This document shows positions 13,151 through 50,764 of a stretch of DNA of 64,000 bases, in pieces. The stretch's first letter is position 1; each line of letters opens with the position of its first letter. This stretch comes from Legionella steigerwaltii (GTDB lineage Bacteria; Pseudomonadota; Gammaproteobacteria; Legionellales; Legionellaceae), in contig NZ_LNYZ01000005.1 of assembly GCF_001468065.1 (NCBI RefSeq), positions 1 through 64,000 on the forward strand, in the 5' to 3' direction. The notes beneath the pieces were generated by a model. That model was not told the DNA's origin and did not search any database. It was given only the letters and a program-made list of their open reading frames with translations. A program made the position numbers and the translations under genes.

Positions 13151-14170
13151 ATGACGCCAAAACAAAGCGGATTTTTCATGCCAGCTGAGTGGCATCCTCA
13201 TGAGCGTTGCTGGATGGCGTGGCCTTGTCATCTTGAAACTTGGTCTAAAGTCGGTTTAGAAAAAGCACGAGTGGCTTATGCACGGGTTGCTCAAGCCATC
13301 GCACAATACGAGCCAGTAACCATGCTGGTCAACCCAGGAGATGAGGAATCAGCCAAAAGTTTATGCGGTGATGGAATTACGCTGTTTACCTTAGCCATTA
13401 ATGACTCATGGACCAGAGATACGGGGCCTACTTTTTTGTTAAATCAGCAGCATCAATTAGCTGGGGTTGATTGGATTCATAATGCCTGGGGTGGTAACTA
13501 TCAAGACTGTGCGCTGGACAACCAAATTGCAGGGGCAATCTTGAAGCAAACCCATGCTTTGACCTTTTCGGCACCTTTGGTTATGGAAGGTGGTTCATTT
13601 CATGTAGATGGTGAAGGAACCATACTCACTTCACGTGAATGCCTGCTTAATGAGAACCGCAACCCCAATCTCAGCCAACAAGAGATTGAAAGTTACCTGT
13701 TTGATTTCCTTGGTTGTCAAAAAATTATTTGGTTAAACAAGGGATTATTAGGGGATGAAACGGATGGTCATATTGATGAAATCGCTTGTTTTGTTGCCCC
13801 AGGAAAAGTGCTATGTCTTATCACTCATGATAAGGAAGATCCCAACTATGCAACCTTGCATGAGAATCTGGATATTCTTAAATCAACGACTGATGCAAAA
13901 GGGCGAAAGCTAGAGGTTTATACTGTGGAGCAACCACCAGCAACCTATCTTGGTGGAGAGCGATTAACCTTATCCTACATTAATTTTTACTTAGCAAATA
14001 AAGGAATTGTTATGCCTGCTTTTGGTTATGAGAAACACGACAAAGCAGCTTACCAGTTATTCACGCAATTATATCCTGGTTATCATATTACGCAAATTGA
14101 TGCGCTGGATGTATTTGCTGGAGGAGGGGGTATTCATTGCATTACCCAACAGGAGCCAAAGAGGCTCTAA
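13151..14170 (+). CDS. aguA: agmatine deiminase
   Basis: Converts agmatine to N-carbamoylputrescine and ammonia, the middle step between SpeA and AguB. The protein belongs to the peptidyl-arginine-deiminase fold family: [36 protein letters not shown] and the C-terminal catalytic Cys330 in [12 protein letters not shown] place the start at the ATG at 13151, just after the speA stop and after a GGAGAAG site, rather than at an in-frame ATG 24 bases earlier within speA. At 339 residues it is slightly shorter than typical (about 350-370). An Rsm-type RNA gene follows. Confidence 0.94.
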
Positions 14171-14189
14171 GACAACACGCACTACTCTT

Positions 14190-14203
14190 TGAGACATTTC
14201 TTA
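14190..14203 (+). promoter_or_regulatory. LetA/GacA-like upstream activating box
   Basis: TGAGACATTTCTTA matches 11 of the 12 fixed positions of the box I recall for Legionella rsmY/rsmZ (TNAGAAATTTCTNA). Its centre is about 65 bases before the predicted RNA start, the usual distance for LetA/GacA activation. Confidence 0.75.
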
Positions 14204-14248
14204 CACTTTGTTGCTCTATCCACGCAATGACAACAACAGCCAAAAAGC

Positions 14249-14254
14249 TATACT
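14249..14254 (+). promoter_or_regulatory. -10 element of the Rsm-type RNA
   Basis: TATACT about seven bases before the first plausible RNA base (about 14261). The -35 region (CAATGA) is poor, as expected of a promoter that needs an activator bound upstream. Confidence 0.6.
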
Positions 14255-14260
14255 GTAACT

Positions 14261-14426
14261 CAAAGGGATGACACGGATACGTCTGACAGGAAGTCAAACT
14301 AAGGGACCAGTACATGGGATGTACTCTGCTGCAAGGATGCAGCACGCTAAACGCTTAATATATCTTATTTCTCCATAAGAAAAAAAATCTCTCTTCCTTC
14401 CAGGGTTGGTATGAAGAGAGATTTTC
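14261..14426 (+). ncRNA. RsmY/RsmZ-type CsrA-sequestering small RNA
   Basis: About 165 bases with six GGA motifs (14266-14268, 14275-14277, 14289-14291, 14304-14306, 14317-14319, 14335-14337), several in hairpin loops. The best hairpins are GAC-AGGAA-GTC, AGTAC-ATGGGAT-GTACT (close to the CsrA SELEX consensus RUACARGGAUGU) and GCTGCA-AGGA-TGCAGC. An activator box and -10 lie upstream and a strong intrinsic terminator downstream. In Legionella, LetA/LetS switches on such RNAs at the end of growth; they bind CsrA and release translation of transmission-phase mRNAs. The sequence does not show whether this is RsmY, RsmZ or an extra copy. Confidence 0.85.
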
Positions 14427-14428
14427 TA
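14384..14428 (+). terminator. intrinsic terminator of the Rsm-type RNA
   Basis: Thirteen-base perfect stem AAAATCTCTCTTC / GAAGAGAGATTTT with a 16-base loop, ending in T-rich sequence. The A run ahead of it makes it potentially bidirectional. Confidence 0.85.
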
Positions 14429-14438
14429 TTCTAAGCAC

Positions 14439-14535
14439 GGTATTGCAGATGTAGGCCGAGCCTTGGCCCCAACACAAAAAACACGATAATGCGCACATAA
14501 GGAAATGCGAGGCCAAGGCCTAACACTGCAATACT
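14439..14535. repeat. palindromic element, GGTATTGCAG family
   Basis: Arms GGTATTGCAG..TAGGCC..CCTTGGCC and GGCCAAGGCCTA..CTGCAATAC pair across about 45 bases. A different family from the TAGCCTGGGTG repeats. A short related palindrome with GGGCCAAGGCCC occurs at 26476. No gene is visible between 14430 and 14627. Confidence 0.75.
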
Positions 14536-14627
14536 GTATCGGTAGCGATGTTCTTGGCTTTAAACGCGCGGTGATTTCGCCTGCTTTCTTCTCAGAAAAT
14601 TCTTTGACAAAGTTTTTGACGAAAAGC

Positions 14628-49621: not shown

Positions 49622-50764
49622 ATGAAGTGGCAGTATTACTCAAAACTCTCGGTAGCTATTGGATTTTCACTCATTAGTTTTTCCTCATTGTCAGCTCAGA
49701 CTATCTATGGTTTACACCAGGCTAGGCAATTTAGAAGTAATACTTCTAGTGATTTTTATATTCAATTAGCGAGTTATAAAAATAAATCCTATGCTTTGCG
49801 CGCAAAATCACAAATACAAAGGAAATCAAATTATCCGGTTTTGTTAAAGGAAAAAAATGGTTATTACCAAATTTTGCTTGGCCCTTTCCACTCTACAACC
49901 GAAGTGAGAGCTGCCGCTCAAGAGTTTGGCGTTACTACACCAATGCAGCGAGTGAGTCAAAACACACCCACTACTAAAGCGAAAATAACTCGTCCTTCTG
50001 CGCCTGTGGTTCAAAATTCAGCTCCCGTTGCAGTAACAAAAAAAGATCCTGTCGTTCCTGTTTATAAAGATAAGGATGGGGTTCTGCCAGCAAATCATTG
50101 GTTTATTGGTGTGGGAGGAGGATGGATGGATCCTTTTGGAACTGATGCCACTAATTTTGCTTCTTCAGGGATGCCTGGCTTTCCGGATGATCGCTATGTC
50201 ACCAATAGTTCAGACAGTACAGGGCAAATTTCTGGTTTTGTCGGTTATCAATGGCGACGAGCAGCTCTTTGGTTCCCTGCAACCAGTTTAAGTTTTGAAT
50301 ACACCTATACCTTCCCTATTCACATCAATGGCGTAATATTCGTTAATGATCTGCCCGATGCTAAAAATTTCACTTATAAATACGATATTACACAGCAATT
50401 GCCCATGGCTAAACTTAAATTGGATTTATATCAGTGGAAACAATTCATGCCTTATATTTCAGGTGGTGTAGGTGTTGCACTGAATCGTGTTTCCGATTAT
50501 TCCGATAGCCCCATTCCCGGAGCTACGGTAATGGAGCGACGTTTTGGCTTTTCTTCCACAACAACCACACAATTTGCTGGTTCTTTTGGTGCAGGGCTGG
50601 ACTACTGGTTTAATTACAACGCTCAAATCAGTGTCGGGTATGAATTGGCTTATTATGGAAAAGCCAGGACTGGTGATGGTCAAGGCACATTGAGTGATAA
50701 TCATCTTGAAAACAATCTTAATTCGAATGGAGTCGTTGTAAAGGGAACATATTTCTTTAATTAA
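49622..50764 (+). CDS. SPOR-domain outer membrane beta-barrel protein
   Basis: A 380-residue exported protein with a signal peptide (residues 1-25, ending LSAQ). Residues about 43-105 form a SPOR domain (YIQLASYKNKSYALRAKSQI, YYQILLGPFHSTTEVRAAAQ), which binds denuded peptidoglycan at division sites. A Thr/Pro/Ala linker follows. Residues about 160-380 form an eight-stranded outer membrane barrel of OmpA/OmpW style (WFIGVGGGW ... VVKGTYFFN, ending in Phe-Asn). The combination suggests a barrel tied to the septal wall. Domain calls are from pattern. Confidence 0.75.
   Translation: MKWQYYSKLSVAIGFSLISFSSLSAQTIYGLHQARQFRSNTSSDFYIQLASYKNKSYALRAKSQIQRKSNYPVLLKEKNGYYQILLGPFHSTTEVRAAAQEFGVTTPMQRVSQNTPTTKAKITRPSAPVVQNSAPVAVTKKDPVVPVYKDKDGVLPANHWFIGVGGGWMDPFGTDATNFASSGMPGFPDDRYVTNSSDSTGQISGFVGYQWRRAALWFPATSLSFEYTYTFPIHINGVIFVNDLPDAKNFTYKYDITQQLPMAKLKLDLYQWKQFMPYISGGVGVALNRVSDYSDSPIPGATVMERRFGFSSTTTTQFAGSFGAGLDYWFNYNAQISVGYELAYYGKARTGDGQGTLSDNHLENNLNSNGVVVKGTYFFN

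Follow-up and report, generated by a model that had tools for sequence, protein, structure and literature searches.

The stretch of Legionella steigerwaltii DNA analysed here, 64,000 nucleotides (nt) of contig NZ_LNYZ01000005.1 (hereafter the window), carries a small RNA gene that we regard as very probably the ordinary, chromosomal orthologue of RsmY, one of the RNAs that sequester CsrA in Legionella. Upstream of the RNA locus lies a putrescine-type operon encoding a carbon-nitrogen hydrolase, an arginine decarboxylase and a PF04371 deiminase, which agrees with the initial annotation in placing the RNA behind a putrescine operon. Downstream there is an S8-family protease gene in converging orientation, and beyond it lie gyrB, recF and dnaN (these three named by eye). 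The source genome (3.95 Mb, 44 contigs) belongs to Legionella, and the closest named relatives of its deiminase gene are those of Legionella sp. PATHC038 and L. steelei, with 93% identity.

The intergenic region contains a LetA-like box, a promoter, six GGA motifs and a terminator-like inverted repeat (Table 1). The box, TGAGACATTTCTTA, is unique in the window in coming within one mismatch of the 12-position LetA box, whose consensus we take to be TNAGAAATTTCTNA, and its mismatched base falls on a position that varies among 34 orthologues (T in 15, A in 14 and C in 5). From the end of the box to the TACT of the -10 element there are 47 nt in 32 of these 34 orthologues; in the other two rows the script took a later TACT. 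On folding, the hairpins and the terminator-like stem form, and the fold is more stable than those of shuffled sequences (z -2.67, with 2 of 200 shuffles equally good). The initial annotation had described six GGAs, an 11-of-12 match to the LetA box and a -10 element, all of which were confirmed. It had placed three of the GGAs in hairpins, whereas we find four in hairpin loops, the first of them on a stem that has only three pairs in the window.

Table 1. Features of the RNA locus. Positions are those of the window; identities and pairing refer to the 34 aligned orthologues.
Feature	Position	Strand	Remarks
LetA-like box TGAGACATTTCTTA	14190..14203	+	11/12 fixed positions; identity 0.92
Sigma-70-like promoter, ATGACA - 16 nt - TATACT	14227..14254	+	10/12 to sigma-70 consensus; -10 identity 1.00
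-10 element TATACT	14249-14254	+	part of the sigma-70-like promoter
Predicted RsmY transcript, ~165 nt	14261..14425	+	start and end placed from the positions of the -10 element and the terminator-like stem
GGA 1	14266..14268	+	unpaired in consensus
Hairpin 1 with GGA 2 (14275-14277)	14270..14283	+	stem of 3 pairs here, of up to 5 in relatives; over 5 pairs, 82.9% of cells paired
Hairpin 2 with GGA 3 (14289-14291)	14284..14296	+	4 pairs, invariant in the 34 sequences
GGA 4	14304..14306	+	unpaired in consensus
Hairpin 3 with GGA 5 (14317-14319)	14309..14325	+	CsrA-type, with miR-144-3p-like stretch; 98.0% of cells paired
Hairpin 4 with GGA 6 (14335-14337)	14328..14343	+	95.6% of cells paired
Terminator-like inverted repeat	14384..14425	.	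longer T-run on - strand, toward the converging protease gene

A BLASTN search with positions 14171-14440 gave a match in 43 of the 45 genomes of the genus. The spacing of the six GGAs recurs in 30 of 30 loci among the BLASTN matches listed, and in 26 of 75 loci fetched with the deiminase protein, the other 49 of which include unrelated bacteria, short contigs, and Legionella loci with another spacing or without the RNA close by. The alignment of 34 orthologues consists of the 30 BLASTN loci plus four of the 26 (L043, L050, L061 and L087; L and G numbers are our handles for loci and genomes), the remaining 22, which come mostly from the same genomes, being left out; as the four added rows were picked by their GGA pattern, their six GGAs are given by selection. 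In this alignment, the sequences have a mean pairwise identity of 0.92 for the box, 1.00 for the -10 element and 0.87 for the hairpin array; the spacers reach 0.66-0.69, and the sequence past hairpin 4 reaches 0.29-0.38. The box, the -10 element and the hairpins are in other words the conserved portion of the intergenic region, and all the parts named in the proposal of a CsrA-sponge gene are present.

The stems are kept together with the array, so that the loss of GGA hairpins in close relatives, named by the initial annotation as a possible refutation, is not seen. In the four-hairpin structure 94.1% of the cells pair, compared with 14-47% when the partners are slid, and changes on both sides of the stems occupy 15 cells versus 4.4 in shuffles. 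Two pairs are clearly compensatory, each a U-A replaced by C-G, one in hairpin 3 (7 of 34 sequences) and one in hairpin 4 (6 of 34).

Could the GGA cluster and the box both be accidental, or could the locus be a short coding gene? Each element taken alone is within chance. Six GGAs in 79 bases are expected to give a mean of 1.0 cluster per 64 kb on both strands of first-order Markov sequence, and 130 of 200 Markov runs gave at least one such cluster. The 12-position LetA box is not enriched genome-wide (37 sites with at most one mismatch versus 35 for a reversed control pattern); a longer box, TNAGANATNTCTTACA, chosen after the loci had been seen, has 29 sites in 11 genomes versus 1 for its control. 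GGA density and box frequency were therefore rejected as stand-alone proof, both being within chance, and GGA count and box match carry little weight by themselves. A coding gene could be suspected from a 67-amino-acid frame on the - strand at 14142-14345 and from two frames that have no stop within the core in 29 and 28 of the 34 relatives; because the alignment contains single-base indels and none of the frames runs uninterrupted across the core of all 34 sequences, the RNA is not read as coding. What sets the RNA gene apart from chance is the conservation and the arrangement, rather than the GGA count or the frequency of the box, and with the whole arrangement conserved in 43 of 45 genomes and its stems kept, we consider a chance or coding origin extremely improbable.

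The array begins ~95 bases past the stop codon of the deiminase gene and on the same strand, as would be expected if it were the 3′ end of the putrescine operon mRNA carrying CsrA sites and no free-standing small RNA gene existed. Nevertheless, a conserved box and a promoter of its own stand between the deiminase gene and the array, and in G124 and G111 the RNA is found beyond gyrB with no deiminase gene among the neighbouring frames listed, which makes an mRNA tail very unlikely and a free-standing RNA gene the better description.

Why should this gene be RsmY and not another CsrA sponge? In L. pneumophila Paris, RsmY bears the label lppnc0001, lppnc0374 is encoded antisense to lpp1558, and lppnc0692 is located between lpp2966 and lpp2967 (excerpts of PMC8828724). 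The lppnc labels appear to follow genome order and, since RsmY is numbered first, it would be expected near the origin. In G034, G111 and G124 the orthologues lie just beyond gyrB, after dnaA, dnaN and recF (genes identified by eye), 6-7 kb from the dnaA end and pointing toward gyrB. In addition, RsmY has been described as resembling hsa-miR-144-3p (excerpt of PMC8828724). Our comparison suggests that this resemblance resides in the CsrA-type hairpin 3, a hairpin conserved throughout the genus, and the resemblance may have arisen as a side effect of CsrA binding. Using the letters that we take to be those of miR-144-3p, the window's hairpin 3 agrees at 14 of 18 positions (a score reached by 6 of 1000 shuffles), that of G034 at 15 of 18 and that of L. 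norrlandica at 16 of 18 (reached by 0 of 1000 shuffles each); two RNAs of a second family (R2) from the same genome as the window and one RNA of a third (R3), both families being described below, were unremarkable, with 602, 174 and 639 of 1000 shuffles respectively. The gyrB-side place and this stretch support the RsmY/RsmZ-type small RNA that had been proposed for the locus and narrow it to an orthologue of RsmY.

The locus is thus like the RsmY of L. pneumophila in its place beside gyrB (as read from the label), its LetA-type box, its GGA hairpins and its miR-144-3p-like stretch, and we found no difference in kind in this comparison by label and published description. This basis leaves some room for a CsrA sponge orthologous to RsmZ or RsmX instead, which in Legionella are likewise LetA-activated CsrA sponges (PMC5780407, in part). 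However, the origin-linked place and the first-numbered label fit RsmY, and the miR-144-3p-like stretch present here is missing from the two R2 copies and the R3 RNA compared with it. L. longbeachae is reported to keep RsmY and RsmZ (excerpt of PMC2824747), and RsmX is reported absent from it (excerpt of PMC5928044), yet its locus L040 has the six-GGA array. We consider an RsmZ or RsmX identity unlikely; most likely the locus is a well-preserved copy of the RsmY gene already known from L. pneumophila.

The regulators that such a gene would need are encoded in the same genome: one response regulator above the cut-off for the UvrY/LetA type, one LetS-type sensor with an sCache_4 domain in a 911-amino-acid frame, and three CsrA matches. 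LetS has been reported with DUF2222, which we presume to be equivalent to sCache_4. In L. pneumophila, LetS/LetA together with RpoS raises RsmX, RsmY and RsmZ, which sequester CsrA and free transmissive traits (PMC5780407, PMC4273665, PMC5338858, PMC5928044, each in excerpt). From this literature we infer the transcription, the LetA activation, the CsrA binding and the life-cycle effect of the present copy. Once LetS/LetA is active, LetA would bind the box and transcription would start from TATACT. The resulting RNA of ~165 nt, with its six GGAs, four of them in hairpin loops, would bind several CsrA dimers, CsrA would be withdrawn from its target mRNAs and post-exponential (transmissive) traits would be released. 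The CsrB/Rsm-type RNAs of Pseudomonas and enteric bacteria work on the same principle, a repeated-GGA RNA titrating CsrA under an orthologous two-component system (PMC5780407, in part).

Several results weigh against this reading of the locus. The terminator is the weakest part of the RNA gene. The 13-base stem of the initial annotation does appear, with 13 pairs, in the minimum-energy fold, but it is absent from the output of a simple terminator scan (0 found), was detected by script in only 13 of the 34 orthologues, and has a sequence identity of 0.37, that is, it is not conserved. Covarying pairs (3) and pair types in the 34 sequences are not above shuffles. The LetA homologue barely passes the cut-off (281 versus 280 bits). 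No Rfam model matched the window at gathering score, and with an expectation value (E) of up to 1 the locus gave six matches, none to the CsrB/Rsm-type families; these six (Streptococcus SpR14 and eukaryotic microRNA models) fall on the terminator stem or its surroundings and were taken as chance. The check with RsmY/RsmZ covariance models was thus negative, the Pseudomonas-type and enteric models of Rfam not matching this RNA, and for want of a matching model we built one from Legionella, R1. This model has a single match in the source genome and finds orthologues family-wide. It matches in 43 of the 45 genomes of the genus and, at the level of the order, in 125 of 143 genomes, all of one family; the weakest of these matches may be other Rsm-type RNAs. 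Two genomes of the genus, G030 and G035, are without a match. In many genomes with few contigs, R1 matches contig 1 at a distance of 6-17 kb from its start; in G005, G033, G101, G113, G118, G119 and G129 the match is far from the contig start, although these contigs may start elsewhere in the genome.

One of the two genomes without R1, G030, is rated 100% complete. At E 0.001 neither the RsmY model nor the R2 model matches it; it does have 2 R3 rows, together with 13 CsrA-domain matches, the highest number among the 45 genomes. Within the window, a second GGA cluster with eight GGAs in 74 bases lies at 50074-50187 on the + strand. Directly 3′ of the RNA gene, at 14437-14537, inverted repeats are nested in one another, one pair of arms being 21 nt long and 81% complementary, the other 9 nt long and 100% complementary; the inner arm occurs once in the window.

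RsmY is not the only RNA of the genus that follows a LetA-type box. Two further families, R2 (model built from 29 sequences) and R3 (from 6), differ from the RsmY locus in stems, place and copy number, and one or other of them may correspond to RsmZ or RsmX. R2 RNAs contain at least five GGAs and are closed by a stem, and the source genome (G000) carries two of them, G000:C13:247744-247850:+ and G000:C9:57963-58075:-. The R2 model gives 90 rows in 36 of the 45 genomes, or 87 after removal of 3 rows that are the RsmY locus, with 0-7 copies per genome and two or more in 24 genomes. R2 is possibly RsmZ or RsmX. Calling it RsmZ outright was not adopted, as in a lax search five genomes had no confident R2 match beyond RsmY, among them G016, where the best E was 0.81, and G034, where E was 0.0095 for its RsmY and 0.52 on the second contig. 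Alignment of RsmY with R2 copies was little informative. On the same second contig of G034, locus L236 (G034:C2:39075) has a one-mismatch box. After the box comes an R2-like RNA, which has a closing stem and carries six GGAs within 200 bases; the locus has no match among named plasmids.

R3 RNAs carry between one and four GGAs and are closed by a long stem. Their model gives 45 rows in 18 of the 45 genomes, 0-8 per genome, in counts that include the training sequences and weaker matches that were not checked individually. In genomes with two or three contigs, R3 is found on the second contig of G002, G006, G008 and G033. Among 72,556 plasmid records R3 matched only 2, with a box-like site at each: plasmid II of L. 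fallonii LLAP-10 (L265, NZ_LN614828.1), which is typed as conjugative and has a mobF relaxase gene at a distance of ~5.7 kb from the match, and an L. antarctica plasmid (L266, NZ_AP022840.1) typed as non-mobilizable. The plasmid gene table shows no feature under these matches, in a table that lists no RNA genes, and the RsmY model had no match among the plasmids.

Taken together, matches to the RsmY, R2 and R3 models sum to 1-11 RNAs per genome of the genus. From these model matches, the sponges of Legionella could be a variable set, with a single and mostly origin-linked RsmY plus R2 and R3 members, and not a fixed pair, and mobile elements may bring a sponge of their own and shift the CsrA balance of their host. 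We see the chances of this proposal as evenly balanced. Against it, 3 of the 20 R3 loci listed (L245-L264) have a single GGA, and the box has two or three mismatches in 9 of them (a perfect box in 4, one mismatch in 7, two in 8 and three in 1). A link between the numbers of CsrA and of sponges was considered and rejected, as the Spearman coefficients across the 45 genomes are weak (0.01 for R2, 0.26 for R3, p 0.08, and 0.15 for all).

The longer LetA-type box also lies upstream of a small gene of the ProQ/FinO family (PF04352), at L240 (G000:C13:569282-569297:-) in the source genome and at L229 (G034:C1:1768666), and by eye the sequence after the box is similar in L213, L216, L225, L228, L235 and L237. 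At L225, no ProQ/FinO-type frame of at least 80 amino acids is among the listed frames. The ProQ/FinO-family gene is a possible direct target of LetA.

What does this mean for the genus? Model R1 provides a family-wide handle on RsmY, for which Rfam matched no model, and it separates RsmY from the other LetA-box RNAs. The open-licence PubMed Central literature, in the portions available, yielded no account of Legionella Rsm RNAs varying in copy number or being carried on plasmids, which is no proof of absence. The variable and plasmid-borne LetA-box RNAs are a more novel lead than the RsmY locus itself: their varying number and their presence on plasmids give a testable starting point for studying the evolution of the CsrA switch.
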